Assembly (NCBI RefSeq): GCF_024713945.1 | Contig: NW_027461524.1 | Coordinates: 62,001 to 126,000 of the forward strand | Source of the DNA: Dermatophagoides farinae | Lineage: Eukaryota; Arthropoda; Arachnida; Sarcoptiformes; Pyroglyphidae | Reading direction: 5' to 3' | Length of the DNA stretch: 64,000 nt | In this document: positions 6,106-50,238 of the stretch, piece by piece | Position numbering within the stretch: position 1 is the stretch's first letter | Layout: every line of letters starts with the position of its first letter | The notes under the pieces: model-generated | Told to the model about the DNA's origin: nothing | Database searches by the model: none | The model's input: only the letters and a program-made list of their open reading frames with translations | Translations under genes and position numbers: made by a program

Positions 6106-6762
6106 ATGAAATATAGTCGTAAAAATAAAGAATCAGTTTATCAACCAAGTGACGACTCATTTTTATTGTTAGACGCTGTGTGTGATAATTTAGCTAAAAA
6201 TACATTTACTAAAAAACTTCAGATTTTGGAAGCCTGTTGTGGGACTGGAGTTATAATTCGCGCTGTTTACGATCTATTAGGTGCTGATCACCATTATATA
6301 GCATTAGATAAAAATTCTCTGGCAGCTGAAACGACGACTGACACGTTTAAATTAGACCCTGGATGTGAAAATTACACAGTTCTAGTTTCTGATAATTTAG
6401 ATGAAATTGAAAATAATTCAATTGACATAATTATTTGCAACCCAGTAAGTATCTTTAATTTAATTTATCTATAGCCTTATGTACCGTCGCATTCACTGAC
6501 GTTTGAAAATCCCATAGACTATTCTTGGGCAGGTGGGGTCGACGGCGTAGAAGTGATTAACATGTTAGTGCCGCAGTTTCGACGTATTGCAAAAAACAAC
6601 ACGGTATTGTATTTATTACTAGAAAAAAGAAACAAGATCGATAATTTCTTGAAAACAAATTTTATAAATGACGATTACGAGCTGTTAAGAGAGCAAAAAG
6701 TTTCAGGAGAGTTTTTAAAAGTATTCAAAATTTGTTACAGAAAATCTATTGAAGGTAATTGA
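6106..6762 (+). CDS. N6AMT1: N6AMT1/HEMK2 (Mtq2)-like eRF1 glutamine methyltransferase, spliced
   Basis: 208 residues from two exons, 6106-6444 and 6475-6762. The 30-nt intron (GTAAGT...ATAG, 6445-6474, phase 0) falls exactly inside the catalytic motif: exon 1 ends in Asn-Pro and exon 2 begins Pro-Tyr, restoring the NPPY signature of glutamine methyltransferases. Other family marks are VYQPSDDSFLLLDAV at the N-terminus, the SAM-binding LEACCGTGVI loop and SWAGGVDGVEVI. With Trm112, this enzyme methylates the GGQ glutamine of release factor eRF1. Without splicing the frame stops soon after the donor. The chosen ATG follows a TTG codon directly. Confidence 0.92.
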
Positions 6763-6902
6763 TATTAATTAGGCAAAATTAATTTTGACATTTAAAATCT
6801 CAATATTAACTGAAATATTGGCCTTATACTTTTTTATATGGATGAGAAAATATTATTCACCTAATAATCAGCTCGATATAATTCAAAATATCCATTAGTT
6901 GT

Positions 6903-8234
6903 ATGCAATCACTCAAACTAGATGACTTACCATTAAAAATTAAAGTTATATTGTCAAATAATCTTAAAAGGTTTCCGATTACAGACGAAGGAGTTAAACT
7001 TCATTTACTTCTAAGGAACGAACCGGCAACAATTGCTAATGAATCAAAAATAGAACGTATAAAACGATTAAAACGAGTTTTTCATAAACCATTTTCAGTT
7101 GACGTAAGTCAACTCGATGAAATGAATGTAAAACGTGTTTATATCGAAGGCAGTGAAGATTTAAAGTGTTTTAGAGAGAATTTGCACCGGCATCACTTAG
7201 AAAACAGCGCTAAACGTAGTAGCATAGTTGAAGTAGCTGAAACTTGTGAGATACAAGCTTTAGAGTCACAACTCTGTTCTAGTTCACTTGTGAGGACAAT
7301 GTCTTTGAATGGAGATTTTTTAATTTTAGGTAGTTTAAACGACTCTATTGAGTTGATACGATTGAACGAAAAATCGCTGAAATCGCACGTGAAACATTTC
7401 GAACGTAACGCTTTTCCTAATGCAATAATTAATCTGCCTAATAACAACCATTTTATAGTTGGTCAAAATAATGGGGAGATCACTGTTTTTAGCTTCGATG
7501 GTTCTAACGAGTCATCTTTATCTCAGCAATTTAGCTCGAAAATACATTCACAGCGTGTAAATTCGCTTGCGATCAATGCATCAAAACAATGTTTACTCAC
7601 GACATCGCATGATGAAACATTTAAATTGTTAGATGTAAGTTTGATGAAAGAAGTTCAAACTCAACACGGCCACGGATGTCCCGTATACTGTGGAGAGTTC
7701 AACAACATATCAAGTCATTTATTAGCAACGGGAGATTTGCGAGGAATTGTTAAATTGTGGGACAATAGAATCACGAGAAACATTGCAAATATCGCTGCTC
7801 ATGTGGATCAAACTTTAAATCTCAAATGGCATCCGCAAATAGACTGGCTTTTAGTTTCATCTGGAGCAGATGGATTAGTCAAATTTTGGGACTTGAGAAT
7901 GTTGAATCAGCACTTGTTCAAAGATGCTGGTGATGGTTATTACTACGAAGATAACTTTACCCGGTATATAAAGAGGTCACATTCTAGATCGATACGAAAT
8001 TTACAGTTTGAACCGGATTACGGTAGATATTTAGTTTCATTAGATTACGCTGGAAAATTAACAGTCACAAACCCTAATTTCGGCCACACGATTGCCACAG
8101 AAAAATTCACGACAAGTTTGCCGAACTGTTTTCAGTTAACTAATAACTCTGAATTATTTATCTCCACAGAAAATAATTGGTTAATAAAAAAAAAAATAAT
8201 AATTAATACTATATCTCGGCTTAACTATGACTGA
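6903..8234 (+). CDS. PRPF4: U4/U6 snRNP protein PRPF4 (Prp4)
   Basis: 443 residues. The N-terminus carries an SFM-like segment (RFPITDEGVKLHLLLRNEP, then IERIKRLKRV), the part of Prp4 that precedes its propeller. The C-terminal two thirds is a WD40 propeller with repeats ending in FKLLD, VKLWDNR and VKFWDLR. Prp4 binds Prp3 on U4/U6 di-snRNA; PRPF3 is encoded at 54.4 kb. As written, the stop codon overlaps the start of the next gene by 8 bases. However, an 11-base A run at 8186-8196 lies just after the last WD strand, and one A fewer would end the protein there at a TAA. The last dozen residues are therefore doubtful. Confidence 0.85.
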   Translation: MQSLKLDDLPLKIKVILSNNLKRFPITDEGVKLHLLLRNEPATIANESKIERIKRLKRVFHKPFSVDVSQLDEMNVKRVYIEGSEDLKCFRENLHRHHLENSAKRSSIVEVAETCEIQALESQLCSSSLVRTMSLNGDFLILGSLNDSIELIRLNEKSLKSHVKHFERNAFPNAIINLPNNNHFIVGQNNGEITVFSFDGSNESSLSQQFSSKIHSQRVNSLAINASKQCLLTTSHDETFKLLDVSLMKEVQTQHGHGCPVYCGEFNNISSHLLATGDLRGIVKLWDNRITRNIANIAAHVDQTLNLKWHPQIDWLLVSSGADGLVKFWDLRMLNQHLFKDAGDGYYYEDNFTRYIKRSHSRSIRNLQFEPDYGRYLVSLDYAGKLTVTNPNFGHTIATEKFTTSLPNCFQLTNNSELFISTENNWLIKKKIIINTISRLNYD

Positions 8235-8799
8235 CGCAAACGATGTTGTTTCGCAGGATTTCACGGAAACGCAGTTTACATTTGGGAAGTTCGCTTTACC
8301 TGGAAAGTCAGTATTCTATGTGACTAAATACTCCGTGGCATTTGTTAATCTTGTATGTACGATGCCTGGGCACGTCTTAGTTGCTCCGATCAAACCTTAC
8401 GTTAAGTTTATCGACATCCCAGATGAAGAAAGAGATGATTTGGCGAAAACGGTCCGCTTAGTTAACGAGATGCTTCGCAGATTTTACAAGATTGCAGAAA
8501 TTCATGTTTGTTTTCAAAACGGAGAAGCAGCAGGAATGAGTGTTCACCATCATCACGTACACGTACTGCCAGCTATCGCAAAACACTATCCACAATACAT
8601 TAGTTTTTGTGATGATCTAAGGCGAGTAGTCAACGACAATTCTGAAGTGCTCGAACACAACATTAGATCCAGGGAACATATGAACTATGAAGCACAGGTT
8701 TACAGAGACTTTATTAAAAATAATTACAAAATCACATACCAAATTCAGCCTTATTTAGTCAATCCAGAATTTCCAAACGCCACTCCAGCTGAGTATTAA
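8227..8799 (+). CDS. FHIT: FHIT-like HIT-family dinucleoside polyphosphate hydrolase
   Basis: 190 residues, ATG at 8227. The histidine triad reads HHHVHVLPA within MSVHHHHVHVLP. Upstream hallmarks of the Fhit branch are FGKFALPGKSVFYVT, PGHVLVAPIKPYVKF and FQNGEAAG. Fhit/Hnt2 enzymes cleave Ap3A and related dinucleotides to AMP plus NDP through a His-AMP intermediate. The length is close to yeast Hnt2. The gene begins inside the final codons of PRPF4 as annotated, so the two transcripts must lie head to tail with essentially no spacer. Confidence 0.9.
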   Translation: MTDANDVVSQDFTETQFTFGKFALPGKSVFYVTKYSVAFVNLVCTMPGHVLVAPIKPYVKFIDIPDEERDDLAKTVRLVNEMLRRFYKIAEIHVCFQNGEAAGMSVHHHHVHVLPAIAKHYPQYISFCDDLRRVVNDNSEVLEHNIRSREHMNYEAQVYRDFIKNNYKITYQIQPYLVNPEFPNATPAEY

Positions 8800-8977
8800 T
8801 ATATTTGTCTTATATTATTTAGAATTTTATATTTCATATTAATAATCGGAAATAATAGAAAATTCCTGTTAGATAATTAATCAAATAAAATTGTTATAAT
8901 AGAGATTCTTTTAACTGTTACGAAGCGAGAATATTAGATTCTGGCGTTTTATAATATGGGCGCATAATAATCTCTAA

Positions 8978-11293
8978 ATGAAATTATCTAATAACGTTGA
9001 ACAACTTAAGTTACTTATTACATCAAGAAAATGTTTCCTATTAGCCTTCAAGCCAGACAAGACCCAATCGTGCGATTGCGGATGTTTTATCGAATTCAAC
9101 GACAGAAATAGTACTAATGAGTCCATTGAGTATTTAGAGCGGCTCGAGCAATCGCTCAGCGCGTTTGATTGTCATTACCTGGTTTGCAGTTGCTTATGCA
9201 ATCTTTTATCCACGCAAAATCAATTTGACGATATTCGATTTTTATTCCTCATAATAGACTACTCACTAAATCTGAACTCCATTAAGAATCTGATTATGAG
9301 AAGTTTCAAGCACGAAAATACCGTTTTAATTAATAATTTTAAGGCTGAGTTGTTTAACTTGCTGATTGACTCAGGTCAGCTTACTTCGATCCCACCTTAC
9401 TTCTACATAGTGTCGCCACTGTGGTTTTTTTGTTGCCTGGAAAACAATTGTCTGTTTACGCCACTAAAAAATGAATTGTTCCAAGTAAACAACAGCACTT
9501 TCGGCCTCTATTATGCAATTAACAGATTTCAACATTTTACCTACTATTACATTCTACCGGAAGAAACAGAAAATAGCTGGACCAATGTGTTTTTCATGTT
9601 CATTTTCGACTATCTTCGCATCAAGCCCATTCTACTTACAGAGGATAGTGATGTATCTCAGTTTAAAGTCAGCAAGTACGACAAGATATTTCTCTTATTT
9701 CCCGGCTTGTCTTTTTACGAGAAACATTCTTTCACGATTAATCTGCGTCAAGACCGTTATAACAAGCAAAATTCGGATAGATCAAACATCCTCAAAGTTA
9801 TTGAGTCGATCTTTAGCATATATGCAGACGGAAAAGTCTCAGCAATAAACATGATGTGGCTGATACACTCATTGAAAATGGGCAAAATAGTGTCCCCTCA
9901 TACCTACATTTATTCGAAGAAAAACTTGTTTGGTGTCCTCAACGAAAGTTTAACGAGAGAAACCACGGATTCCACTATTTGTGGATATCGAAAAATTGAT
10001 CAGTTAAATGACTTTGCTGACTACTTGGACTGTAGCAGCATGAGTTCGAACGACAACTACTCTTTCAACAAAATCGATAAAATGAAAATAAACCGAGAAT
10101 ATAGCGAGGAAAAGTTGTTTGATGAGCTCACTCAAGCTTTGAACTTGAACGAACCAGCGTATTTAACTTCAAACACATCGACAGAGAGACGCAACAACTT
10201 CTCTCTTGGGTCTCCAGGCGAATCCAAACGTGTCAAGCACAGTCTTGCTACATTTCCGGATGAAAACAACGATTCTGATATTTCGGAAATTTTAAACCTG
10301 AGCAACCTATGCGAAACCAAGCTTAACGACAGCGTCACTGAGGGTCTCAGTGAAATACAAGCTAAAAACAACAAAATTATCTTCTCGTCTCTTGGTGCCG
10401 CTGTAGAAAATTTCGTCAGTTCAGACTTCGTACTCGAACCGATTGTTTCACTCGTCTACTACGGGTATTTGTTTCTGGAATATCTTATAGGTGACAATAA
10501 CCTCATCAGCTTCGTACCAGATCGTCTGATCAAAGCTCTACTGGTGTACAAAGTTGCCCACACTGTGGAAAAAATCCTGCTGTTAAACAACCGACGGTTG
10601 AAAGACCCCAACATAGTTCAAGCTGAGTACATCATAGACAAAACTGCACTTTCTCAAATGGACTTGGGAGCGAAAAACCTGTGTTTCTACCTACAAAACG
10701 ATTCCGGCAACAAATCGGCGCTAGCGTCCCCCGATAACGAAATGTTATCTACCAAAATTATTGCTACAGAATATCTAAATTTAATTCGCTGCTATGTCCA
10801 AAAAAATTGTGAACAGTTCACGGATAAAAATTATCTGCGTGAACTTCTTAAAAAAATAAGGGTTTCCCTGATCACTGAACAAATTCAGTTCATTGACTGG
10901 TGCAACGAGACTAATTTTCTCGACATCACCTTAGGAAATACCACCTACAATATTATCATTTCAGACAGAAAAATCGTCCTTTCTGACTTTTACCAGCCGA
11001 TTAAGCGGTTTTTTTCGATGCTATCCCTAGTCCTGGGTAATGAAATTCTAACAAGATGTCAAATTCGAGGCTGTGACGACTCACATGAATACCTTTTGTT
11101 CAAACGCGTGCTCAATCTCGGCATTTCCAAAATTGAGTACGAAGCTACACAGTTCACTCAAAACGACATCTCTGACATCACAATAGACGAAGAACTGAAA
11201 AACGTACAAGTAAACGCCGCTACTCAGCTGTTAGAACCTAACGAACTATATTCTACAAAAATTGAGAAACTAATTTACAAGTCGTCTAATTAG
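8978..11293 (+). CDS. Large hypothetical protein (orphan), 771 residues
   Basis: Single exon, ATG at 8978, not recognised. The N-terminus has a short Cys cluster (CDCGC, residues 32-36) and then a hydrophobic-aromatic half with segments such as PPYFYIVSPLWFFCCLENN. The middle, around residues 360-460, is polar and Ser/Asp/Asn-rich, probably disordered. A second folded region follows (FVLEPIVSLVYYGYLFLEYLIG to IEYEATQFTQNDISDI). I see no zinc-binding site with proper spacing, no P-loop and no clear transmembrane helices. It sits at the start of the G+C-richer block. Coding potential is strong, but the function is unknown. Confidence 0.75.
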   Translation: MKLSNNVEQLKLLITSRKCFLLAFKPDKTQSCDCGCFIEFNDRNSTNESIEYLERLEQSLSAFDCHYLVCSCLCNLLSTQNQFDDIRFLFLIIDYSLNLNSIKNLIMRSFKHENTVLINNFKAELFNLLIDSGQLTSIPPYFYIVSPLWFFCCLENNCLFTPLKNELFQVNNSTFGLYYAINRFQHFTYYYILPEETENSWTNVFFMFIFDYLRIKPILLTEDSDVSQFKVSKYDKIFLLFPGLSFYEKHSFTINLRQDRYNKQNSDRSNILKVIESIFSIYADGKVSAINMMWLIHSLKMGKIVSPHTYIYSKKNLFGVLNESLTRETTDSTICGYRKIDQLNDFADYLDCSSMSSNDNYSFNKIDKMKINREYSEEKLFDELTQALNLNEPAYLTSNTSTERRNNFSLGSPGESKRVKHSLATFPDENNDSDISEILNLSNLCETKLNDSVTEGLSEIQAKNNKIIFSSLGAAVENFVSSDFVLEPIVSLVYYGYLFLEYLIGDNNLISFVPDRLIKALLVYKVAHTVEKILLLNNRRLKDPNIVQAEYIIDKTALSQMDLGAKNLCFYLQNDSGNKSALASPDNEMLSTKIIATEYLNLIRCYVQKNCEQFTDKNYLRELLKKIRVSLITEQIQFIDWCNETNFLDITLGNTTYNIIISDRKIVLSDFYQPIKRFFSMLSLVLGNEILTRCQIRGCDDSHEYLLFKRVLNLGISKIEYEATQFTQNDISDITIDEELKNVQVNAATQLLEPNELYSTKIEKLIYKSSN

Positions 11294-11453
11294 TGGCTTC
11301 ACCATTTTTAGAATATACTGGGGCTGTAAATGTTAAAAAATTCATAAATTAAATTTATATAATTTAAAACTGTCTGTTGTATTATAGCCACTTGCTAGGC
11401 TTAGTTTGTGTGCGCAATAAAGTCGAAACTAGGTTTGTATAGTTTGTTTAGCA

Positions 11454-13791: not shown

Positions 13792-14629
13792 ATGAACTCC
13801 GATTATTGTAAGTAAAAACTCTTTGAAACAATGTTTTCAGACAACGAAGACATCTACACAGCTTCAAACCCGACGACCAACGTGGCTCACCAACTTATTA
13901 ATTCCGGAGAACGATTCGAACAAGCTTTGAACTCATTCCATTTGTCGATAACAAGTTTGTTTTTCCTAGTTGCGATCGTTGAACTTTCCATGGCGTTCTC
14001 GCAAACGCTACGAAGCCTGTTTAAATTTAACCTGCCTGTCTTTTTCACTTGTGGACTGATGATGGTAATGCTATTTGTCGTTTCTATTGTGGAAATCCCA
14101 GGCAAGCCTCTGTGGGCCAAGGGCTATCGCAACTGCATCAACTCGGAAATACATTGTTTGACCAAACTTTGCTGCAAAGGTTTGTTTTTTTGTCTACGGC
14201 TCGCTCTACCTGTTGCTTGTCGCCCAGTCAATCGGTCAACGAGGTTTTTTGAGTTTGATTTACTACTTTTCCAGCTTATTGGGTTGTTTTGTAGGTTTTG
14301 TCGGTATTTGTATCGGATTAAAGCGCTCCATCTATCTCGAACAAGCCCGCAAGGAAATCGAAGCCAACTACAACGGAAGTTTCATGTCTGAATACAATAA
14401 TTTCGCCCAAGAAGACCCGCAACACGGGCTGTCTCCAGAAGAATTTTCAAAACTTTGTTCAGAACTGTCTCAAAATCAAATTTATTTCAGCGAAGTCGAC
14501 CTAGTTTACATTTATAACGCTCTAGATAGAACACAGTAAGTTTCAAAAGCGCAAATATATTATAGAAAAGGAGCAATCAACCTTGCCGAGTTTTCGGAAT
14601 GGGTAAACGGAAAGATTATCTTTCTGTAA
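13792..14629 (+). CDS. COPI-associated (TVP15-like) four-TM protein with EF-hand, one-base frameshift
   Basis: Proposed exons are 13792-13807, 13841-14535 and 14566-14629, with introns of 33 and 30 nt. Exon 1 encodes MNSDY plus one base; an in-frame ATG at 13831 lies inside the first intron and is probably a decoy. Four hydrophobic segments (around NSFHLSITSLFFLVAIVEL, FFTCGLMMVMLFVVSIVEI, CKGLFFVYGSLYLLLVAQ and LIYYFSSLLGCFVGFVGIC) resemble the COPI-associated/TVP15 family of Golgi proteins. The frame breaks by one base at a T7 run (14185-14191); counting six T restores one continuous frame. Splicing of the last intron completes an EF-hand-like loop, DRTQKGAINLAE. The frameshift is more likely a homopolymer error than decay, because the frame is clean on both sides. 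Confidence 0.6.
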
Positions 14630-19424: not shown

Positions 19425-20237
19425 TTAGTTTAACGGCATTTTAGGCATTTGAAACGTCTTCATTAATATCTTGCAAACACTCATGTAGCGCAAAATGATT
19501 TTTTCATCGAGAGCAATGATGTTAAGCTCAACGAGTGGCATTTGCATTCTCAGTACATTTTGCGGTAAAATTCCGTACTCATATTCAGCAAGAATCAACG
19601 ATAAAAACTATAAAACATATAAAACACGTGACTTACCACATTGGCTACTTCAGACGGCAAACTCATCAGTCTGTTTGCAAACTTCACGAGTAAGTGCCGT
19701 TTCGACTCTGAAATATTTAAAGTTTGTTCATGTTTATCCATCGGCTGTCTGTTATACGGGCGGCTGCGCATTCCCATCATCATTTCGCGGTTGTTTGGGT
19801 TTTGTACTCCGCAATCTATCATTTCACCCGCGTTTAGATACATAACGTGGTACTCGATTATTTTTAAAGACTCAGCCTCCATTTTGTTGGCCATTTCGTA
19901 AATGTCCGTGTTGCAGCCGTTGAATGCGCGGCAGTTGTCCCATATTAGCTTTAAATCTGCCGTGAACTGGTCAATGGAATTCAATGGATAGTAGTTTTCA
20001 ATAACTCTGGCCTGTTAATATGTCAGCAAAATCAACTTACTCGAATTGTAGACAAGTCCATGGGATTTTTGATGATCTGGATATAATCTGTTAATCCCAG
20101 CTCTTTCCAGTCCACCGGCTGACGAAACGGGTGCGAGTAGGGTAATTTTTCGATTTCATCTACGTTAAAGTTTATTACTTTCCATACTTACTTAACACAT
20201 TGTGGTACCACTCAAGAGATAATTGAACTGTAGACAT
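19425..20237 (-). CDS. Bromodomain protein, four exons
   Basis: Exons on the minus strand are 20237-20192, 20159-20041, 20011-19637 and 19607-19425, separated by introns of 32, 29 and 29 nt, each starting GTAAGT. Together they give 240 residues. A bromodomain fills roughly residues 5-100: [30 protein letters not shown] and [18 protein letters not shown], with the acetyl-lysine-binding Asn in the AFN segment. The C-terminal 100 residues ([20 protein letters not shown] and onward) match nothing I recognise; no AT-hook, NET or acetyltransferase domain is visible. It is therefore a small stand-alone acetyl-lysine reader. It is the most intron-dense gene in the window. Confidence 0.85.
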
Positions 20238-20420: not shown

Positions 20421-21347
20421 ATGGCTAGCGAGGTTGAACTAGAGTACAAAAACTTCAACGAAGAAACAAATGAAGACTGGAAGAATTACAAGGCCAATAT
20501 TTTTCCTCTTCCGTCAGAAGAACAGCTTGAAAAAATCAAGCGCCGTTATTTTCATGATCGAATAAATAAAAACTTGCCTCTTCACAATTCCAGTGTTTCT
20601 GCTACAGAAGAAAAAAAAGATTCTTCTGCAAAACAATCTAACAGTTCTAAAAGACTCGAGTTTTTGGCAACCTTTTTAAAACACAGTGATAGAATAGCGA
20701 TAGTGTGCTACATTTTGAGTACAGTATTCATAGTCTTGGAAGAGTTCTACTTCAAAAATTTAGTTGTGTCACCTATGTCTTTCTTTTTAGTTCTTGGAGT
20801 CGTGTTACGTCTCAAATTGTTTATGATCTTCCGAACGTCGTTTCGCGAAATCGTTGCATCGCTCATGACGCGTGACGAGTTCCATTCGCTCGGAATATAT
20901 TTTTTTTTGGTAGACCGTCTGCCAGGCTTGGCTAAAATATACATAATGCTAATGATGCACTACCAAATCTTGCAGAGCTACCACTCAACTAAAGTAGTTG
21001 ACATAATTAGAAACAGATTTATCAAGATTTACTCAAACAAAGGTATGCTTGAGCTATTTATTTTCCTTTGCTTAGCTGCCACGTCTTTCAAATCGATACG
21101 GCACGCTTTGAGTACACTGCTATTTAGCAACTTCTTGACCATTTTATACACACACAATCCGTACACGAAAGAAGGAATAGATCGCGCAAGTCAGTATTTC
21201 AAGCGGTACGTAGTCGATCAAAAGTTTATGCCCAGCTTTGGCAAGAGAATGTACGCAACTGTAAGTTAAGCTGATAATAAAATTTTTTTTTAGATTTCTG
21301 AAATTTTTTCAAAAAGAATCCATCAAATGAACAATTGCAAAAGATAG
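20421..21347 (+). CDS. TMEM33: TMEM33/Pom33-family ER membrane protein, spliced
   Basis: Exons 20421-21260 and 21294-21347 with a 33-nt intron give 297 residues. After a polar N-terminus of about 85 residues come several hydrophobic segments in the TMEM33/Pom33/Tts1 layout: RIAIVCYILSTVFIVLEEF, DEFHSLGIYFFLVDRLPG, SNFLTILYTHNPYTKEGI and VVDQKFMPSFGKRM. Splicing replaces an early stop with ISEIFSKRIHQMNNCKR, matching the conserved tail after the GKRM-like box. Members shape ER tubules and help distribute nuclear pores. Identity is low, so I rely on segment order and the conserved Phe-Leu-Thr and Asn-Pro-Tyr positions. Confidence 0.72.
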
Positions 21348-21400: not shown

Positions 21401-21588
21401 TTATCTGGCTACATATTGAGCGACTACATAATTTTATTTTTTTGAAACTTACGTTTTTTGCTTCTTGTTTTATTCAAGATTCTTGATCCGCAGGTGCGGC
21501 ATCGAATCGAAGCGCTGGGCTCAAGGCTTATTATGTTCCCACAAGTTACACAAATGTAACTCATTACTTCTGCTGGCTTGTCACTCAT
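21401..21588 (-). CDS. POLR2K: RPB12/RPABC4, shared subunit of RNA polymerases I, II and III
   Basis: A 52-residue protein from two exons, 21588-21453 and 21423-21401, with a 29-nt intron (GTAAGT...GTAG, phase 1). The four-Cys zinc ribbon is complete: YICVTCGN followed by IRCRTCGSRIL. The spliced end RSKKLAQYVAR mirrors the conserved RTKRLVVFDAR tail of human RPB12. The gene is too short and too split to appear as a long reading frame. It sits between TMEM33 (convergent, 53-bp gap) and BMS1 (divergent, 149-bp spacer). Identification is firm because both the zinc ligands and the C-terminus agree. Confidence 0.93.
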
Positions 21589-31744: not shown

Positions 31745-32059
31745 ATGATTATTCCAATTCGCTGTTTTTCATGTAACAAAGTTATAGGGAACAAGTGGGA
31801 AATTTATCAAGAAAAACTAGCTGAGTGTATGCCAATAGAGTAAGTGTGAGAGTTTAAGACCGAAAGTTTGCGAATATGATATTTTTTAGCGAAATTTTGG
31901 ACAACTTAGGATTGAAACGTTACTGCTGCCGCAGAATGTTATTGGGTCACGTCAATTTGATTGACGACTTGTTGAAGTACAACCGTAAGTTTACTCTTTT
32001 CGCATAATTTTTTAGCATATGAAAAACGCCAATATTCTCAAAACAGAGGAAACATATAA
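31745..32059 (+). CDS. POLR2L: RPB10/RPABC5, shared subunit of RNA polymerases I, II and III
   Basis: 77 residues from three exons, 31745-31839, 31890-31984 and 32016-32059. The first intron is 50 nt, the only one here outside 27-33 nt; the second is 31 nt. Conserved family blocks are [18 protein letters not shown], the CX2C part of the zinc site, and [20 protein letters not shown] with the CC pair. The end, PYEKRQ plus nine residues, is a little longer than human RPABC5. Both introns interrupt codons and must be removed for the frame to stay open. It converges on RPS8. Confidence 0.95.
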
Positions 32060-33036: not shown

Positions 33037-33345
33037 ATGGATGTAATTCGCCTGTGCAATAATCGGGCGAAAATTTATTACGATGTTAAAGCTCTAGAAA
33101 AGTAAGTTGGCAACGCCACAGGTATTAATAGACAACTCGCGCTTTACTTCCTCAATTATGGAAAAAAGTCTTTAGAGCCTGAAAATCCAGAAAATTCTCA
33201 TAACGTCTCTAACAAATCTATCACGACGCCAGACGACTTTAAATTTATGAACTCTAAAAAAAACCTCAAGAGAAAACTTAAAGTTCGTGTCAACGAGCAA
33301 GGTATGAGAGTTCGGCGAGGTATGGGTAAAAAAAAAAGAGACTAA
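33037..33345 (+). CDS. Small basic protein, spliced, unidentified
   Basis: Two exons, 33037-33101 and 33132-33345, separated by a 30-nt intron (GTAAGT...ATAG, phase 2) give 92 residues. It begins MDVIRLCNNRAKIYYDVKAL and ends in a very basic tail (KKNLKRKLKVRVNEQ, then RRGMGKKKRD) like a nucleolar or RNA-binding protein. I do not recognise the family. Splicing removes an in-frame stop just after the donor, supporting the model. The stop TAA at 33343-33345 overlaps the DUS1L stop on the other strand, so the two 3' ends interlock. Confidence 0.65.
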
Positions 33346-36384: not shown

Positions 36385-36751
36385 CTATTTTTTGTTCTTC
36401 ACCAATATCATTACCAATAGTAACATAGAGCTGTTAATAAGCGCATATTTGAGGTAATCACTTTTAAACATTCTGTGTGTCAAGCTTTCTGAAAATCTAC
36501 TTTTTTGGTAACTTACCAAACATGACGATATGATGCCTGGCTTTGAATAGCAATTCGTAGTATGACAAAAAAAGTTTCTTCGCCCAAGGTAAGATTATAT
36601 GATTAATTCTAATAGCAAAATTGTCAAAATTTCCCTCTAACGATTTTAAATAATCGAAAAAAACGAAAAATATATCAATCAACAGGAAAACTTTAATAAG
36701 CTCAACTAATTTAGAATAACTAGATCTTTTTGTAATATTTTTTTTTGTCAT
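36385..36751 (-). CDS. Small membrane protein, spliced, unidentified
   Basis: Exons 36751-36517 and 36488-36385 with a 28-nt intron (GTAAGT...TCAG, phase 1) give 112 residues. There is one strong hydrophobic segment near the N-terminus (LIKVFLLIDIFFVFFDYL) and another at the C-terminus (ALINSSMLLLVMILVKNKK), with a basic and aromatic middle. The C-terminal segment exists only after splicing. The layout fits a small two-pass or hairpin organelle-membrane protein. I do not recognise a family. The divergent neighbour starts 137 bp away. Confidence 0.6.
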
Positions 36752-36888: not shown

Positions 36889-37833
36889 ATGATCAGTGAA
36901 CAATGCATCCAGAATACACCCATTAAAACAAAAATCCAAACTTTTAAGTGGCCTGTAAGTCAAATTAGTAAATTATTTTAGGGAGCATCACCCCTAACGA
37001 TAATCTCGCCAAACGATAAATTAACTTTAAGAAATATTTTTAAAATCTGCAGGCATGATGAATTTCTCAAAAGCTTAGAAAACTCTGAACTTACTAATAT
37101 AGATTTCTTTAATGAAAAATATCGAAATTTAGCAAAGAGTTTTGCGTCAGGATCTCAAATTAGTAGTAACAGTAACTTCGTTACTTCGAAATTTAATTTG
37201 GCTCTGGACAATTATTTAATGACTAGACTTAAGTTAAGTTTACTACTGGTTGAACCCGGAACAGACCTTGTTTCTTTACTAAAGCTCATTGTTCCACATA
37301 GACACGAACATGAGACTTTATTCATATTACATGCCTACTGGAAATACATACAAGAACTTTGCCGTATGCAAAACCCCGAAGTACCTAGTAGCCTGAGAGA
37401 AGTCCTGAAAATAAAATATTGTCCCAAAGAGTACAAAAATAAAGTTCAATTAGACTCAAAGTATTTGATCAAGTTTCAAAACGATGAGGCGTTAACTTGG
37501 ATCGACAAACTACTAGCTGAATCCGAATCTTGGTATCGCAAATGCTGGAAAAATCAAAACATAATTCCTACTGAAATCATATCTGAGCTCGCAAAAGAAT
37601 TGTATTCTAGACGAAAAAATTTGACTATTTTAAAGAATCAGTCAAATGCTAGTCAATGTGCCGTATACAGCACTTTATCTTCGGAATTGAAAAAGCAATT
37701 GAACTTAATTAGTTCAAGAAAACGTATTTTCAAATTGTTACGACCGTTTTCCTGTGCAAATTACAATGTAGTGCTCGGAGGACCTTTGCCCTGGGAGACA
37801 AATATACTTAGAGAAATTTTTAAAAAATTTTAA
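36889..37833 (+). CDS. Hypothetical protein, spliced (orphan), 305 residues
   Basis: Exons 36889-36954 and 36982-37833 with a 27-nt intron, joint shortest in the window. Exon 1 encodes MISEQCIQNTPIKTKIQTFK and two more residues; exon 2 has no earlier in-frame ATG, so the first exon is needed. The protein is helix-rich with Trp-containing stretches (LHAYWKYIQELCR, ESESWYRKCWKNQN) and no membrane segment. No family recognised. It converges on the 497-residue orphan with 24 bp between stops. Confidence 0.65.
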
Positions 37834-41139: not shown

Positions 41140-41140
41140 G

Positions 41141-42943: not shown

Positions 42944-43005
42944 CGAAATCTAATGCCCAAACAAATTCTGATTATTAATACTGGCACCCTTAATTACATG
43001 CACAA

Positions 43006-44309
43006 TTATTTGTCCTCTTTTCTCAATTCTTGACTTTTCTGAATCATTAGATCTCGTATCGTGTCTAAAATCGATTCGTCAAACCAGCCATTTTCTGGAG
43101 AAAAATGTGCTGTTGGATTTGTTATTGAAATTAGTCTTTTCACTAATGGGATTTCCAACTCACATAACTGATACAATATAGAATGTTTAGATGGCGGAGT
43201 TAAGAATTGGAAATCAATTTTTTTATTTTTATCCAATGTTTCGTTGTTTTTAATTTTAAGTTTGTAATTAATTGATCTGAAATATGGATCTCTGAAATCG
43301 ATGATTTGATATATCCGTGCTTCAGGGCGCTTGCGAGGATCATAGCCAAACTTACACAACGCTGTTCTCCATGGCCCATTTGTCCAGGTGAAAGCCAGCT
43401 TTGCCAAAATTTTTTTAAGTAGAGTTTTTTTAATAGTTTGAAGATTTGTCTATAATAAATTTTGCGTTGCTAACTTACATATTCTAGCAGACTGTTACGT
43501 AGCCATATAGGTTTATCATCGAAAGCTTGTTTTATCTTGTCATGACTCTCCTGCTCATGTTTTAAAAGCTTGATGTTTTTAACTGCTTCACTACATTCAG
43601 TATACACGTTTTGGCACGTGTTGCTACAAGTTAAATTCATTGTGACAGACTCATTATTTGGGTCGTTGAGCAACAAGTCGTGAAAAGTGTTTATATTGAT
43701 ATTATCGCGGTTTTCAGGAACAAAGAGATGCTCGAGATCCGCAATAAGATCCGCTTCGTCTATATCACTTTTGTTTTTTTTCATTGCAAAGTAATTAGAA
43801 ACAGTTTGTTTCTTGTACGGTTTGAGTTGTCGTGAATAATTAGATGGAGGAATCATATCGAGTGTTTTCAAATTGCACATGGCTTGCTTAGATGCTTTCC
43901 TGCATATTTCGCCAAATATGTCTACGGGATATCTATATATATAATTTATACTGTTGTGATAGTCTGCCATATGTAAAAAAGTGTGGATTTGAGTGCAAAT
44001 AGTAACACAGGAATAAATAGTTTCTCCATTTATCACGGACCTATGAATTACTAAGCCAAAACAAGGTTTTTTCTTTGAAAAAACACATGACGATAATGGA
44101 TCGTCAGGATCGAATGTTAACGCGATGGACTCTGGTGTATTTCTGGACATAGCATCTCTAACTTTTTCAACCCCTCCTAAACACTCAATAATATAATCAA
44201 CCTGTGGTATTTGTCCTGGGATTTCGATCATTGTAGTGTTTACAAGGTCTTGTATATTGTCAGACGTTAATATCACGTTATTGTCATTGACGGGGGTGTT
44301 ATCAGACAT
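43006..44309 (-). CDS. GTF3C5: TFIIIC subunit 5 (GTF3C5/Tfc1), spliced
   Basis: Exons 44309-43479 and 43449-43006 with a 29-nt phase-0 intron give 424 residues. The junction joins DDKPIWLRNSLLEY to a short helix leading into TWTNGPWRTALCKFGYDPR, then PEARIYQIIDFRD, the strongest signature of this family (human GPWRxxWVRFGYDPRK, AKIYQ). The N-terminal part (IPQVDYIIECLGGVEKV, YSCVTICTQIHTFLHMADY) matches the dimerisation barrel. GTF3C5/tau95 binds the A box of tRNA genes within TFIIIC. Reading without splicing would break the protein in the middle. Confidence 0.92.
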
Positions 44310-44896
44310 AGATAATTACTAATGAATCATGTAAGTCGATTTTTTAATGGATATAAATCGTAACCAATGAATTATATATAATATTATAATATGGAAAAAA
44401 ATTAAACTATAAGTCTATATAGTCATTATACCGTTAAATATTAATAATATTACTAAGATATTTTAGTTGGAGTTTTTTTTCATATGGTCTAGTATATTAT
44501 GTCTTACTGCAGTATTTTAATTAATATTCACCTATTTAAAAATCAGGTTCGATTTTGTTTGCGCAGGGCTGGCCTTAAAAATGTTTTTATTTTTCTAAAC
44601 ATATATTCTATTATTAAAACTAAAAGTGTATTTGATATGGGCGTCTTTGTAATATGAGTTATTATAGTTATTTTGTATACTAGGAAGTAATTAGTAGTAA
44701 TTATACCAGAACTAATATTCTATTTTGGAATTATTAATTTCATAATTTATAAACTATCTAATAATTAGATTGATATGATATAATATGGTCATGATTATTT
44801 TTTAAGCGTTATATGAACTAAATATAATCTTATCTGTAATATTTTGAGCATTGTGATAAGCTTAAGTTTTTTTGTTAATTGAAGCATTGAACCCTG
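44310..44896. other. Longest intergenic stretch, AT-rich
   Basis: 587 bp between the GTF3C5 start and the CCCH gene stop, both minus-strand. It is very AT-rich with short TA-rich runs. A single G+C-richer patch at about 44546-44576 contains GGTTCGATTTTG and GCGCAGGGCTGGCC. It resembles a polymerase III B box, but no tRNA cloverleaf can be folded around it. No spliceable reading frame is seen. It should contain the GTF3C5 promoter and could host a small non-coding RNA. Confidence 0.5.
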
Positions 44897-46183
44897 TTAA
44901 CAGAAAGAGTCTATTCCTTCGAGCATCCCTAGGAAATCAATGTTATTTCCGCTTTCCAGATTGTCCAAAATATCATCAAGTTTACAACTGTAATTGTGAT
45001 TTATTGGTGATGATGATTCTGAAATTGCATTTGGAGTTACAGAATCATATTGGTCGTCAAATGGAAATTTGGAGTAAATGAATTTTTCAGTGTACAGCTC
45101 TATTAATTTACCGCATTCAATTTCTTTAAAACTAAGTAAATTAAAATAATTTTGCAGTAGAGCACATTGAAATGATAATATTGTAGGTGTATGATATTCT
45201 TCTACATTATATAAACGTAAAGAAAGTATGGCTGCTTGAGCCATGGTGTATAATACTTTGTCAGTGGATATTGCACGGTGACCAGGAAGTGGAATCATTT
45301 TAAACAACTTGTTATTTGGCAACACGCGTAATACAGGATGAAATGCATTTCTTATGACAGTCACACCTATCTGTGATTTATATTTTCGTTTAAATTCATC
45401 TATGATGTTTAATTCGAATTCATCAAATCCTTGTGTGTGAACAACGTAACAATCGTTTAATAACTGAGGAGGTAATGTCCATGGGTATGCCGATTCAATT
45501 TGGTTCGACAGTTTTCGAAGTTCCGAATACCCATGAGCAAAAGCGCAAAAGTACCATGGACAAGCACTTTCCTGCATGTTGTCTCCTGAAGTTGTGTAAC
45601 TTAAGCATAGTCGAGTTTTGTATATGTTAGGGTGATACAACATTTCGTCAACTGCGTGAACGAATGGACAATTCTCTCCTCGAGGACAATAATGAGTTTC
45701 GTCCGCTTTACGAACGTTGTTGTTCAAGATTTGGTCATTGTAATTATTGATCTGGGAATTCTGTTTGTCAACAAACATTACTTTTCCGTACTGATCACAG
45801 ATCGCTGTCCAGTTTGGGGCTTTAATTCTTGGACACCAAACTGGTATGTAGCGAAGTGTTAATGAATTAGATCTTGGTAAAAATGGAGTTCTGCGAAGCA
45901 ATTTTGGCTCGTGGCTAAACATGCATCGTGCGATCATCTTACATTCATTAGACATACTTAATCGTTCGCAAAATTTTGTGCGAAAAATATTAAGTCTAGA
46001 CCAGTTGAAGTTAGTATCAGTAAATACCAAAGGTCTTTCAAAATGAGACACAACTGCAGGTATCGATTGTGAAATATTTACGTAACCATTTGATTGTGCC
46101 TTTTGATCTCTTGCTTTGAAGTTCCCTTTCATTATATTACGTCTTTCTACGGAATGTGAAGTAACTCGAGCCTGGACGATCAT
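44897..46183 (-). CDS. CCCH-type zinc-finger RNA-binding protein
   Basis: 428 residues, ATG at 46183. Three CCCH fingers are visible: FCERLSMSNECKMIARCMFSH (C-x8-C-x5-C-x3-H, about residues 72-91), HYCPRGENCPFVHA, and KTRLCLSY ... CPWYFCAFAHGYSELR. The order and the linker VDEMLYHPNIYKTRLC recall the Unkempt and plant arginine-rich tandem CCCH families, which regulate mRNA stability or translation. The rest is low in motifs. It has no RING or KH domain. A more exact assignment is not possible from the sequence. Confidence 0.8.
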   Translation of the reverse strand: MIVQARVTSHSVERRNIMKGNFKARDQKAQSNGYVNISQSIPAVVSHFERPLVFTDTNFNWSRLNIFRTKFCERLSMSNECKMIARCMFSHEPKLLRRTPFLPRSNSLTLRYIPVWCPRIKAPNWTAICDQYGKVMFVDKQNSQINNYNDQILNNNVRKADETHYCPRGENCPFVHAVDEMLYHPNIYKTRLCLSYTTSGDNMQESACPWYFCAFAHGYSELRKLSNQIESAYPWTLPPQLLNDCYVVHTQGFDEFELNIIDEFKRKYKSQIGVTVIRNAFHPVLRVLPNNKLFKMIPLPGHRAISTDKVLYTMAQAAILSLRLYNVEEYHTPTILSFQCALLQNYFNLLSFKEIECGKLIELYTEKFIYSKFPFDDQYDSVTPNAISESSSPINHNYSCKLDDILDNLESGNNIDFLGMLEGIDSFC

Positions 46184-46435
46184 ATTAATTAGTGAATTAT
46201 AAATTAAGCGTGATCTTTTTTAATTCTTGTTCGCACACATGATGTTACAAATAATTTAGAATAATTTTGATCTGTTTTGTGTTGATTTAATATTATTTTC
46301 GGATTTTTATTTATAACATGACAAAAATTAATTTATTTGATTAAGTTGTAAAACAGTCTATTAATATAAAATTTGTATAACTTGTCGTTGAAGATTAGTA
46401 TAAACTTATGAACACTGCAATGTAAATTGCATTGG

Positions 46436-47068
46436 TCATATATTAACGGTTGGATTTTGTAGTTTTTCTAATTTACATAAACACATGTTACCCTCGTAGC
46501 TAAGCCCATATTGTTTTGCTAAATCATACAGATCTGCAACTTCTTGAGCGACCCAGGCATTTCTTAATTTGCTACGAATTGCATAAGCTATTTCTTCTAT
46601 GACGACATTCCCGTTTTCTTCACTTTCATTTTTAGAGTTGTCATTAGTGTGACTAACAGAGAAGTCATCAATCTCAACTTTAGAGATTGTCGGTTTTGTT
46701 GCTGAATATTTAACAAATTTTTCCTTCATTGGTATATATGATAATTTTTCATAAACGCGATTTTCAGGCTGTTTCCATGGTTTGTTCGCTACATTTGCAT
46801 TAGAAACAATGATGCTTTTTGTATTTCTATGGGCGTTTGGTTTAGATTTGGATTTTTTTTTAAATGAATCTACTTTTTTTCCATTATCCGTTACTATTTT
46901 TACGTTCTGGTTAAGTTCTTCAATGAGCTTGATTAAAGGAAGCGGGACTGAACTAGCTTCCGAGTTGATAAATTTGTTTATCTTATTAATCGTACTCTTT
47001 AAATTACCACAATGTAACAAAATATTTAGTTGAATATCTGCTTCAGTTGAATTTTCTTGTTGAGTCAT
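46436..47068 (-). CDS. Hypothetical protein (orphan), 210 residues
   Basis: Single exon, ATG at 47068. An N-terminal helical part (LNILLHCGNLKSTINKINKF), a Lys/Ser/Asn-rich middle with DSFKKKSKSKPNAHRN, and a C-terminal segment (EEIAYAIRSKLRNAWVAQEV, ADLYDLAKQYGLSYEGNMC) that looks folded. No family recognised. It may be nuclear given the basic centre. A 252-bp spacer separates it from the CCCH gene start. Confidence 0.6.
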   Translation of the reverse strand: MTQQENSTEADIQLNILLHCGNLKSTINKINKFINSEASSVPLPLIKLIEELNQNVKIVTDNGKKVDSFKKKSKSKPNAHRNTKSIIVSNANVANKPWKQPENRVYEKLSYIPMKEKFVKYSATKPTISKVEIDDFSVSHTNDNSKNESEENGNVVIEEIAYAIRSKLRNAWVAQEVADLYDLAKQYGLSYEGNMCLCKLEKLQNPTVNI

Positions 47069-47462
47069 ACTAAATTCACAAAATATCTACAAAACAGATT
47101 AAAAAAATATATTTATTTTATAATTGAAGGCATACGTTAATTAGTGTCTTTCCATTCTTATAAAACTACTATTATGCAAATAACACAATATAGTGAGTTT
47201 GGAAATTTTTTTTAGCCTGAATATTTTTCTATTATACCTAATCTAATTAACTATAAAAAATATAAATATGAAAGATTTAACTAATGAACTGGAGATGAGA
47301 ATAAGTCTAATTTAAAAACCATTGCATCGTATAAATTAACATTATTCTTTTAAATAAAAATTGTTTCATTTTTTATTATGAAATTTTATACATGCGCATT
47401 GAGTTATAATCGCACAATCAGTTTTATACACCTTTAAATTTTTGTAAAGATAATAAGTAATA
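47069..47462. other. Divergent intergenic spacer
   Basis: 394 bp between two divergent start codons (orphan on minus, ADF/cofilin on plus). AT-rich, with one 15-codon ATG frame at about 47268 that I do not consider a gene. No tRNA, repeat or convincing motif is seen. It presumably contains two promoters. Confidence 0.5.
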
Positions 47463-47879
47463 ATGGGACCAAGAATAAAGTTTAAGGTTGAGCCTAAAGC
47501 CATTGAAATGCTTGAAAAGCAACTAATAACCAATGATTTAGGAGGAAGAAAACGTATTAAGTGGATGATATTCAAGCTTGGTTCAGAATCATGGGATCTT
47601 TTGGCCTATGGTGAGCCAACTCCTGATTTTTTTGATAAAATCGTCGCATATTGTCCTAAAGATGAAGGCCGACAAATAATGTTTAGAAGCGCTGACGATA
47701 AAACAGACGTTTGGATTAAATATATTCCAGACGAAGCGTCAACTAAAGAAAAAACTCATTTTGCTACTGGTAGTGATAGTTTGTTTGAAAATTGTCGCAC
47801 ATGTAAAGTCAAGCTTGAGATCAGAGATCATGTCGAGTTGTCGAAAAACAACCCTGATCTAGCCAAATATGTAACGTAG
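47463..47879 (+). CDS. ADF/cofilin-like actin-binding protein
   Basis: 138 residues, ATG at 47463, the length of a single ADF-H domain. Characteristic segments are DVWIKYIPDEASTKEKTHFA, equivalent to the FIxWxPDxAPxxxKMxYA strand-helix of cofilins, and the following SDSLFENCRTCKVKLEIRDH. The N-terminal helix KVEPKAIEMLEKQL and a central beta sheet agree with the fold. ADF/cofilin severs and recycles actin filaments. The sequence is quite divergent, like the actin at 4.8 kb, and could be another ADF-H type such as coactosin. A regulatory Ser at position 3 is not obvious. Confidence 0.7.
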   Translation: MGPRIKFKVEPKAIEMLEKQLITNDLGGRKRIKWMIFKLGSESWDLLAYGEPTPDFFDKIVAYCPKDEGRQIMFRSADDKTDVWIKYIPDEASTKEKTHFATGSDSLFENCRTCKVKLEIRDHVELSKNNPDLAKYVT

Positions 47880-48021
47880 ATGTGCTTTTTATAAAAATTG
47901 CCTTTGCTTCAATTCAAATAAAGTTTTATTATTATTTTTAGAAGATGATTTAAATATTGTTACAAGAATAAACGTATATATATTGATTACACGCATACAG
48001 TGTCAAATTAAATTAATAAAT

Positions 48022-48882
48022 TTATACAGTAAAATAATCCAACGTTTCTATCTTGTCTGGGATATTAGGACCTTTAGTTTCATTTTTTTTTTTGAAGCTA
48101 GAACAATATGTTATGACACCGTTTGGAATTCTATTTCGCCATTCATCTTCGGAGAGTTTTTCGTAACTTTGTGCAATTTCTGTTTTTTTCGTTGAAGTCG
48201 AACTGACAGACTCGTCAACGTAATCTTTTGGTGCTTCAAAATCTACTTCTATGTCTGCATTAATTACCAAAATTGCATCTTCAGGTTCACATTCCAGCGC
48301 TTCTATTTCATACTTCTCACCATACGCATGAAGATCAAAAATGTCTCCTTTTGTTAAACAACTGAAGTTTTTCAAGCATTGCTCTAAAGCTTCTTTAGGA
48401 TCATAAATATTTGTAATGAAAGTAGTTGTTGATGGCTGTAGTTTGATTTTTGTACCTTTTTGTAAAACAACGTTTTTTATCAATAAGGTTTGACCATCAC
48501 GCAACAATAAATTCTTCATAACCCATGACGGCATGTAACACCTATTTTCATCTGCGCTAAATTCCAAAACTCCACAATGTGTGAATTGGCTTGTTTCTGG
48601 ATTAACAACTTTAAACACCATTGGCATGGTTACTTCAAGCATGGTGAGTCTAGTCAAAGCTGAAATAGGTAATATTATTCGATTAGTCAATTCTAAATCG
48701 TCTCTAAAAATAAAAGCACTACTGTAACATTCGTAATATTGTTCAAAAATGATCACCCGCTGTTCTATTGAAGGGCGATCCCTGTAATTGTTGTTGTCAT
48801 TTGATCGTCTCGATCTTCTTGAACTAAAATAGTTTTCTACGAAACTATACTAAAAAATATCGAGTATAGGCAGACATACCAT
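48022..48882 (-). CDS. UFD1: UFD1, p97/Cdc48 cofactor, with an ATG-only first coding exon
   Basis: 276 residues. The conserved body (IILPISALTRLTMLEVTMPM, THCGVLEFSADENRCYMPSW, LKNFSCLTKGDIF, INADIEVDFEAP) is the two-lobe ubiquitin-binding UT3 domain of UFD1. The frame lacks an ATG before IIFEQYYECYSS. A 30-nt intron (48879-48850, GTATGT...TTTTAG) preceded directly by ATG at 48882-48880 joins in frame to YSFVENYFSSRRSRR, giving the family start MYSF (human MFSF). The first coding exon is thus just the start codon. UFD1 with NPL4 recruits ubiquitylated clients to p97. The donor is one of two that are not GTAAGT. Confidence 0.88.
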
Positions 48883-49128
48883 ATTATTTGGGAGGAATTC
48901 TGAGTTGAAATTTTATTAACCTTGAAAAACAATGGTTAAGGACTATTCAGAAAACCCAACGCTATATTTATTGTGCTGGTGGATAATTAAATTACGGCGT
49001 TCAAACAACTATACATTTAATAATATTATTAATGCCGGATAAAATTATTTTTTGCGTTGAGTGAATTATTCTTCTGATTTGCCTTAATTATTTCTTTCTA
49101 GTTATATTTTCTGAAAATTAAACATAAA

Positions 49129-49411
49129 ATGCAGACTATAGTAAAAACTTGTGAAAAAACGTACGCCATAGAATTAAAAATTCCAAGTGATGACGAAATT
49201 GAATCTCCGTCTGATCGAGAAGCCAATTTAGAAACAGAACTATCTGAGACACAAACTGTTGCTAATAAGTACGTGATCTTTAAAGACGACGTAATAGATA
49301 ATGAGCATTTAAATAAGAAAAAATCTAAAAGTAAGTTAACAACTTTTAACATCAGTGTTAGTTTGCTGTCAATTTCATAAAGAAGGAGTGTCCAGTGATG
49401 AAGAAAGTTAA
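49129..49411 (+). CDS. PPP1R11: PPP1R11/Ypi1, inhibitor-3 of protein phosphatase 1, spliced
   Basis: Exons 49129-49330 and 49362-49411 with a 31-nt intron give 83 residues. The diagnostic block spans the junction: VIFKDDVIDNEHLNKKKSK joined to ICCQFHKEGVSSDEES, matching DNEHM...KCCCI in human PPP1R11 and the DNEN...KICCIFH box of yeast Ypi1. The flanking PP1-binding region is acidic and disordered. The family binds PP1 catalytic subunits as an inhibitor and assembly factor. A shorter 25-nt splice (to the earlier CAG) is possible but fits the family alignment less well. The stop abuts the stop of the opposing AP sigma gene with no spacer. Confidence 0.88.
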
Positions 49412-49909
49412 TCATGTCTTTGTGGCTATTTGTTTTATCACAGACGCGATGTCTACTTTGCTCATGTTAACTATCTGACGATTAGATATATACTGCTTTA
49501 TGATCGCGTATACAACATCAATATTTTTCATTATTTCGATTTCGCTCTGCAAATAGTAGTTTACGTATAAACTTACGACACCTTGAAAATATAAATTCAA
49601 ACATTCAATAATTGATTGAATCAACTCCAAAATTAATAAATAATTCTATAGTTATTTTTCGAAATAACTTACAGACTCGTTTTGATCGATTCCTACTATT
49701 ATGAACAACGAAGCAAAACGCTTAAATACTATTTTTTGATTGTGAATAACCAAAAAATTACTATCGTTGTTTTTTCTCTTTAAACAACTTCTGGAACAAT
49801 TCAGCTCAAGAGAATTTTTTTCCGCTGTCGACAAATTCTGCAGTTCTCCGTAATAAATGCTTAAACGGGTCAGTCCTAATTTGTTTATCAAAAAAATAAA
49901 ATCGATCAT
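49412..49909 (-). CDS. AP4S1: AP complex sigma subunit, probably AP-4, three exons
   Basis: Exons 49909-49673, 49645-49577 and 49546-49412 (introns of 27 and 30 nt) give 146 residues. The adaptor small-subunit longin fold is clear: FLINKLGLTRLSIYY, SCLKRKNNDSNFLV, FKRFASLFIIVGID, LLILELIQSIIECLNLYFQG and VSEIEIMKNIDVVYAI. SCLKR and SLFIIVGI resemble AP-4 sigma more than AP-1, AP-2 or AP-3. The second intron is a multiple of three and stop-free, so it stays open in the genomic frame; its removal restores YFQGVSEIEI in line with YFxxVSELDI of all sigma chains. It serves in coat assembly at the trans-Golgi network. Confidence 0.85.
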
Positions 49910-49979
49910 TGCATTTGTTTAATCCAATAACATTTAATTGATATTAAATTTATATAATAACGATTAATTATTCTTTTAA

Positions 49980-50238
49980 TTAACCTCCACGTAACATTAT
50001 GACAAAATGTAAATTACTATTCTCTGTAACGTTTTGTTGTGCGAATGTTTGATCATCGTCTAACTGTTTTCCAGAAAACATCAGCTTAAACTGCGAATTT
50101 TCAACGTTTTCAAGTTTCTACAGACTTTATATGAGTAGCGCTTACCGATAATGTTTCTCTGAAATCTTTAACCTTTGTATCTGGCGAAACAGTAAATGGA
50201 ATTATATTCTTAGTCACTGATCGTATGTAAATATTCAT
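49980..50238 (-). CDS. Ubiquitin-like modifier, NEDD8-like, encoded as a mature monomer
   Basis: Exons 50238-50146 and 50117-49980 with a 28-nt intron (GTAAGC...GTAG) give exactly 76 residues ending in LRGG and then the stop. The beta-grasp fold is apparent (MNIYIRSVTKNIIPFTVSPD; FKLMFSGKQLDDDQTF; LHFVIMLRGG). Lys48 and Val70 are kept, but residue 72 is Met rather than Arg of ubiquitin, and positions 6, 11, 27, 29, 33 and 63 are not Lys. SGKQ and a non-Arg residue 72 favour a NEDD8-type modifier over ubiquitin. There is no C-terminal propeptide and no ribosomal fusion. Identity with any known class is low. Confidence 0.85.

Follow-up and report, generated by a model that had tools for sequence, protein, structure and literature searches.

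The window analysed here, a stretch of 64,000 nt that comprises bases 62001–126000 of one contig (called C21 in the following; 249,898 bp) of the Dermatophagoides farinae assembly, appears to carry a set of very short introns, nearly all of 27–33 nt. Very probably these are tiny spliceosomal introns from an apicomplexan inhabitant of the sequenced mites that was assembled together with its hosts; a gregarine is the likeliest candidate. That the segments are spliceosomal introns of a single tight size class appears well supported by the reading frames and protein domains that are restored upon their removal, and contig C21 itself is, as judged from its genes, an apicomplexan contaminant of the mite assembly. 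A reference assembly for an important source of allergens would thus contain about 3.6 Mb of parasite sequence, a point of consequence for gene sets of the mite; further, a long-read genome in few contigs of an unusually small apicomplexan would already be public, unnoticed in the literature searched.

Introns of the window

In a sequence-only reading of the window, 19 introns had been counted in 14 genes. These totals fit one set of coordinates, and in this set the lengths (18 introns of 27–33 nt and one of 50 nt, in RPB10), the donors (17 GTAAGT, one GTATGT in UFD1 and one GTAAGC in a ubiquitin-like gene) and the acceptors (15 TAG and four CAG) are as had been claimed. Gene finding with 13 permitted donors and introns of 18–60 nt recovered 14 of the 19, 13 of them with identical ends and the one at 21261 with a different acceptor.

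At eight of the 19 junctions, splicing raises the score of a Pfam match. Removal of a 29-nt intron (43450..43478) from the TFIIIC Tau95 gene on the minus strand (43006–44309) lifts the Tau95 match from 23.3 to 97.6 bits, and RNA_pol_N in RPB10 (plus strand) rises from 43.2 to 97.5 bits when the 50-nt intron at 31840..31889 is spliced out. In a bromodomain gene (19425–20237, minus strand), exon 3 alone yields 32.3 bits and the exons joined across a 29-nt intron ending in CAG (20012..20040) yield 74.2 bits. A PP1 inhibitor-3/Ypi1 gene on the plus strand gains from 31.0 to 53.2 bits (PPI_Ypi1) across a 31-nt intron (49331..49361). The adaptor protein (AP) sigma gene on the minus strand has two such junctions, a 27-nt intron (49646..49672), also predicted by the gene finder, with which Clat_adaptor_s goes from 43.6 to 60.0 bits, and a CAG-ended segment of 30 nt (49547..49576), a stop-free multiple of three, the removal of which adds a further step from 60.0 to 66.8 bits. 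A HemK/N6AMT1-like methyltransferase gene (6106–6762, plus strand) with a 30-nt intron (6445..6474), likewise found by the gene finder, improves its MTS match from 31.6 to 37.0 bits, and splicing rebuilds what we take to be its NPPY motif. Finally, the minus-strand region 49950–50240 encodes a diverged ubiquitin-like protein of 76 aa with an LRGG end, which is split by the 28-nt GTAAGC intron (50118..50145); with the intron retained there is no Pfam match, and with it spliced out ubiquitin is matched with 62.0 bits.

Two more junctions are supported by a C-terminal motif. Splicing of a 29-nt intron (21424..21452, minus strand) gives RPB12 the C-terminus RSKKLAQYVAR followed by a stop, which resembles the usual end of this protein; the Pfam score is 42.0 bits either way because the junction lies outside the Pfam model. 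The second, C-terminal intron of RPB10 (31 nt, 31985..32015) restores the frame beyond the Pfam match (residues 2–59) and thereby completes what we assume to be the C-terminal motif of RPB10.

Six junctions are supported by the reading frame alone. Two of them belong to the bromodomain gene, a 29-nt intron at 19608..19636 and a 32-nt intron at 20160..20191, the latter at the margin of the domain match, which hardly tests it. The others are a 30-nt intron (14536..14565, plus strand) in an EF-hand-like 3′ part, where EF-hand_8 stays under the cut-off with 17.0 bits; a 30-nt intron (33102..33131, plus strand) in a small gene without Pfam match (33037–33345), which if retained creates an in-frame stop at the donor; a 28-nt, CAG-ended intron (36489..36516, minus strand) in another small gene (36385–36751); and a 27-nt intron (36955..36981, plus strand) in a gene without Pfam match (36889–37833), which was also predicted by the gene finder.

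The remaining three are weak. In one gene for a membrane protein, a 33-nt intron (13808..13840, plus strand) at the 5′ end contains an alternative ATG and was missed by the gene finder; for another of 33 nt (21261..21293, plus strand), close to the 3′ end of a gene that starts at 20421 and also encodes a membrane protein, the gene finder favours an acceptor at 21316; and the 30-nt GTATGT intron of UFD1 (48850..48879 in 48022–48882, minus strand) follows directly after the ATG, its removal providing a start codon, the UFD1_N1 match (107.6 bits) starting downstream of the junction. Two overlapping frames of one membrane protein, between 13816 and 14536, come together close to a homopolymer of seven T (about 14184), with no fitting intron; this looks like one base gained or lost in the assembly.

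The intron class along the contig

Contig C21 is densely packed with genes: 75% of it is covered by open reading frames of at least 150 aa, gene models make 84% of it coding, and the median distance between genes is 150 bp. The 164 gene models contain 44 introns (18–60 nt, with several donors) in 37 genes, and 35 of the 44 measure 27–32 nt. "Uniform", as the class had been called, is therefore slightly too strong a word, since the other nine range from 33 to 56 nt (33, 36, 39, 46, 50 and 53 nt once each and 56 nt three times). The 33-nt intron at 21261 is among those of 56 nt, on account of its later acceptor.

An unconstrained GT..AG gene finder returned 52 introns of scattered lengths with GTAAGT as the commonest donor (10 of 52) and was too noisy, and therefore fixed donors were used together with decoys. 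When introns of the form GTAAGT...TAG/CAG were allowed any length from 12 to 200 nt on the whole contig, 25 were found, 19 of them at 27–32 nt, while 60 decoy hexamers matched in abundance gave a mean of 1.48 introns (at most 5) and a mean of 0.03 (at most 1) in the class of 25–34 nt. In an earlier run of this kind, with any AG acceptor, the count was 13 of 19 and the decoys gave a mean of 0.93 introns. Among other donors run without a length prior, GTATGT yielded 7 introns (5 at 28–36 nt), GTAGGT 3 and GTGAGT 2; GTAAAT yielded 7 and GTAATT 6 (none below 68 nt), three GTAAG variants 1, and GTACGT, GTTAGT and GCAAGT none.

Counting the bare motif is much less telling. GTAAGTN{8,30}TAG occurs 16 times in the window, with a mean of 9 in shuffled sequence and 4 of 100 shuffles reaching 16, and on the contig GTAAGTN{12,28}TAG is not above its reversed control (51 vs 48). 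With only mild enrichment in the window and none against the reversed control, such counts were dropped as evidence; the signal resides in the restoration of reading frames, not in the number of motifs. The predicted V-ATPase B protein aligns without a break to the bovine/rat-type chain across the junction of its 29-nt intron. The same class is also met on other contigs: C17 carries a Rab gene with introns of 25 and 27 nt, and C19 a syntaxin-like gene with two of 29 nt. Nine non-mite loci were scanned and junctions translated in two of them, with four of six candidates accepted and two undecided.

A probable apicomplexan owner

The pyruvate kinase encoded on C21 appears decisive for an apicomplexan affinity. 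Its eight best matches in the Protein Data Bank (PDB) score 473–520 bits and the next one 366, that is, 107 bits below 473; we take the eight to be chains of Toxoplasma, Plasmodium and Cryptosporidium and the next to be human PKM. AP2 DNA-binding domains are found above the cut-off on three contigs (C19, C16 and C14) and below it on a fourth (C11), with none on C1–C10, and both C14 and C16 begin with CCCTAAA repeats, that is, repeats of the TTTAGGG type. Short introns had been regarded as a taxonomic clue in the sequence-only reading; a clue they are, only not to the dicyemids or Blastocystis named there, as pyruvate kinase and the AP2 domains mark the sequence as apicomplexan.

Within the apicomplexa, a gregarine is the most likely owner, because the host is an invertebrate, because of the intron class, and because an 18S sequence obtained from the astigmatid mite Caparinia is reported to have turned out to be gregarine (PMC6321676). 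As a further point in favour of an apicomplexan, three proteins of C21 with cysteine repeats (C21:1-620, C21:201440-202564 and C21:236591-237397) look by eye like oocyst-wall proteins.

Some contig ends may be mentioned in passing. At the start of C11 stands a noisier repeat, AACCT-like, which resembles an arthropod telomere more closely, and C11 may be a chimera or come from a different end; C18:1-200 reads N throughout; and the last 10 kb of C21 (240001–249898) have a GC content of 0.22 and an ORF cover of 0.15, are nearly free of genes, yielded no telomere repeat and may be subtelomeric.

Extent of the parasite sequence

The assembly used comprises 62,435,336 bases in 22 contigs, of which C1–C10 are the ten mite chromosomes; D. 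farinae GCA_024713945.1 is described with 62,428,314 bp, 21 scaffolds and 10 pseudochromosomes (PMC11074847). Contigs C11–C21 add up (by hand) to 3,593,788 bp, which leaves 58.83 Mb for C1–C10. This remainder is close to the size of another long-read assembly of the species (58,776,842 bp; PMC11074847), and C11–C21 thus correspond approximately to the excess. Microbial DNA had been filtered by BLAST against microbial RefSeq, as stated in the same source (PMC11074847), a filter that a little-known protist would pass.

Proteasome loci number 14 on C1–C10 and 11 on C11–C21 (neighbouring pieces merged; 3 of the 11 on C11), and CCT-family loci 8 on C11–C21, with 9 in the mite, where a further long frame probably encodes a different protein. 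If these counts mirror completeness, the parasite genome would measure about 3.6–4.6 Mb; 3.6 Mb is a lower bound, as further contigs may have been filtered out, and C11–C21 are possibly a nearly whole, very small apicomplexan genome. Babesia microti, with about 6.4 Mb, still has a larger one. Less probably than not, and with much less confidence than in the attribution of the introns themselves, C11–C21 may make up the bulk of the nuclear genome of a mite-dwelling gregarine not yet described; at about 3.6–4.6 Mb it would be much smaller than the small gregarine genomes in print (8–9 Mb), and its introns would have been driven to a class of 27–33 nt and be spliced without a fixed position or motif of the branch point.

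Alternative explanations

Several observations weigh against the assignment of these segments to apicomplexan introns. Counts of the motif by itself do not clearly exceed chance, and nine of the 19 junctions in the window are either weak (three) or supported by frame alone (six). Apart from pyruvate kinase, protein comparisons help little: eS8 and actin favour apicomplexan chains weakly, by only a few bits. The best PDB match of eS8 is 5xxu, taken by us to be Toxoplasma, with 246 bits (fungi, 243 bits), and the intronless actin gene (4788..5933, plus strand; Pfam Actin, 402.6 bits) has as its best matches green-algal (Chlamydomonas) and apicomplexan (Toxoplasma and Plasmodium) chains, which together lead by a few bits. 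For V-ATPase B the matches are to mammals, yeast and plants, none of the listed chains being recognised as apicomplexan, and the comparison of phosphoglycerate mutase (PGAM) with the PDB decides for no group; a proteasome query returned no PDB match at a strict cut-off. The cysteine-repeat proteins look like the Cryptosporidium oocyst wall protein (COWP) type, and the two tried gave no Pfam match. If most of the segments were chance GTAAGT...TAG strings or frame-shifting indels of the assembly, the scant enrichment of the raw pattern in the window and its failure to exceed the reversed control on the contig would be in keeping with that, as would the apparent one-base frame break near 14184, where there is no intron; it is nevertheless highly improbable, given lengths that peak at 27–32 nt without a length prior and that decoy donors almost never yield, Pfam gains that land exactly on predicted junctions, and the recurrence of two motifs in register, GTAAGT at the start and TTAG/TATAG at the end.

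That the contig should be the mite's own, either a gene-dense region or the result of horizontal transfer, with the tiny introns then being mite introns, is suggested by its place in a mite assembly and is extremely improbable on the following grounds: C11–C21 make up the surplus relative to the other assembly of this mite (58.78 Mb), the full set of 14 proteasome loci is already present on the mite contigs and the other 11 lie on C11–C21, the actin of C21 is distinct from the animal-type actin of C6, and GTAAGTN{12,28}TAG occurs 20.4 times per 100 kb on C21 vs 4.1 in the whole assembly. Mite ownership was dropped on account of the size excess and the separate proteasome set. Another protist with tiny introns, a microsporidian, mikrocytid, Blastocystis or dicyemid, is a further candidate, for dicyemids and Blastocystis have comparable introns and so do mikrocytids (16–17 nt; PMC10245619). 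A non-apicomplexan owner of this kind is very unlikely in view of pyruvate kinase, the AP2 domains and the TTTAGGG telomere starts; the first two led us to drop microsporidian, dicyemid and Blastocystis ownership. Likewise, microsporidian eS8 chains rank at the bottom of the list.

Intron structure and the spliceosome

For the analysis of intron structure, 41 introns of 27–33 nt were curated, 18 within the window and 23 outside; eight were excluded, the 50-nt one of RPB10 and, from outside the window, seven others (36, 39, 46, 53, 56 and 56 nt, and one of 30 nt ending in AAG). Since the set was picked by donor list and length, the shares of donors and ends are not free of selection: all 41 are GT...AG introns with G at +5, GTAAGT being the donor in most, and the acceptor is TAG in 37 and CAG in 4. 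Their median length is 30 nt and the mode 29–30 nt, most having 27–32 nt. T dominates from −4 to −9 (at −6 and −5 in 30 of 41), and A is present at −14 to −10 in 20–24 of the 41, with a peak at −12 (24 of 41); at −6 only 5 of 41 have A. The absence of a strict branch-site motif, which had been noted from the letters, was confirmed: CTRAY occurs in 3 of 41 introns vs 2.7 in shuffles, and YTRAY, TRAY and TAAC are not enriched in the curated set either. CAACG-like and GCTGA strings are enriched, in 3–4 of 41 introns, as is AAAT weakly (19 vs 13.8), which possibly reflects chance. Loose branch sites are common to many lineages, and a missing motif does not exclude membership in the U2 type.

The introns crowd towards the 5′ ends of genes; for 35 introns in genes of more than 450 nt the median relative position is 0.11 (Kolmogorov–Smirnov (KS) p 1.4e-6), and 15 of the 35 lie within the initial 10% of the coding sequence. 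The claim that introns are missing from most large genes also holds, since an intron is present in only 2 of the 17 models on the contig that reach at least 900 aa. Both features are as expected if introns were lost through reverse-transcribed copies, which is the manner of loss we would propose.

The parasite genome evidently retains a spliceosome, to judge from predicted genes for PRP8 (261.6 bits) and SF3B1 (36.1 bits) on the sister contig C14 and for PRP3, a U4/U6 snRNP protein (54362..55459, plus strand; Pfam PRP3, 48.5 bits), inside the window. SF1-HH and RED_N domains were matched on mite contigs only (C1:6156482 and C6:306690-307491) and not on C11–C21, where they may be too diverged to match, or C11–C21 may be incomplete. 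Human cells are reported to require RED and Smu1 for short introns (PMC6692369), and the seeming absence of RED, if true, would be of interest in this regard. A search with Rfam that covered the window and the remainder of C21 returned no snRNA and one tRNA; a tRNA scan of the window returned none.

We envisage ordinary GT-AG spliceosomal introns that have shrunk to a narrow class of about 27–33 nt in a compact apicomplexan nuclear genome. Both intron ends would be set by the near-invariant GTAAGT donor and by a short U-rich stretch before TAG, and the A-rich patch 10–14 nt before the 3′ end probably offers a loosely defined branch point; the introns may thus be defined from both ends across 27–33 nt, with the branch A loosely placed. 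How a spliceosome locates the branch point within as little as 27 nt is a question that these introns allow one to ask.

Relation to known tiny-intron systems

In the literature searched, mostly outside subscription journals, neither a description of this contaminant nor one of other gregarines with short introns was found. Tiny uniform introns are already known from apicomplexa, the closest known system being Porospora cf. gigantea, a marine eugregarine of lobsters, which like the organism considered here has a gene-dense, compact genome with a coding share of 84% (PMC9250747), the same as in the C21 models. Its introns, with a median of 28 [27–30] and a mode of 28, 71–72% of them belonging to a class of 25–30 bp (PMC9250747), are similar in length to those described above, which with their mode of 29–30 nt are slightly longer. 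The genome of Porospora has 54% GC vs 29–42% in this window, its 8.8–9.0 Mb, a size shared by the small gregarine genomes considered from the literature, compare with 3.59 Mb of contigs here, and 2957 of its 5270 genes bear introns vs 37 of the 164 models on C21 (PMC9250747).

More distant parallels exist. Babesia microti, also an apicomplexan with a small genome, has still shorter introns of about 20 bp, which have been likened to those of Porospora and also have a conserved A (cited in PMC9250747). Mikrocytids likewise combine a narrow intron class with a reduced parasite genome; they differ in belonging to the Rhizaria, in a length of 16–17 nt, and in a sequence that is highly conserved throughout (PMC10245619). 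Chlorarachniophyte nucleomorphs (18–21 bp) and heterotrich ciliates (15–16 bp; both cited in PMC10245619) also have uniform tiny spliceosomal introns, which are shorter than those found here and stem from unrelated lineages.

A further difference to Porospora concerns the 3′ end: there, an A 6 bp before the acceptor is strongly conserved (PMC9250747), whereas here that position is A in 5 and T in 30 of the 41 introns. With the length alike and this A missing, the introns of C21 are not assigned to exactly the Porospora type. They would represent a second apicomplexan case of a uniform class of tiny introns, with a 3′ end unlike that of Porospora, and allow one to ask whether the tiny-intron class of gregarines is ancestral or has arisen twice.

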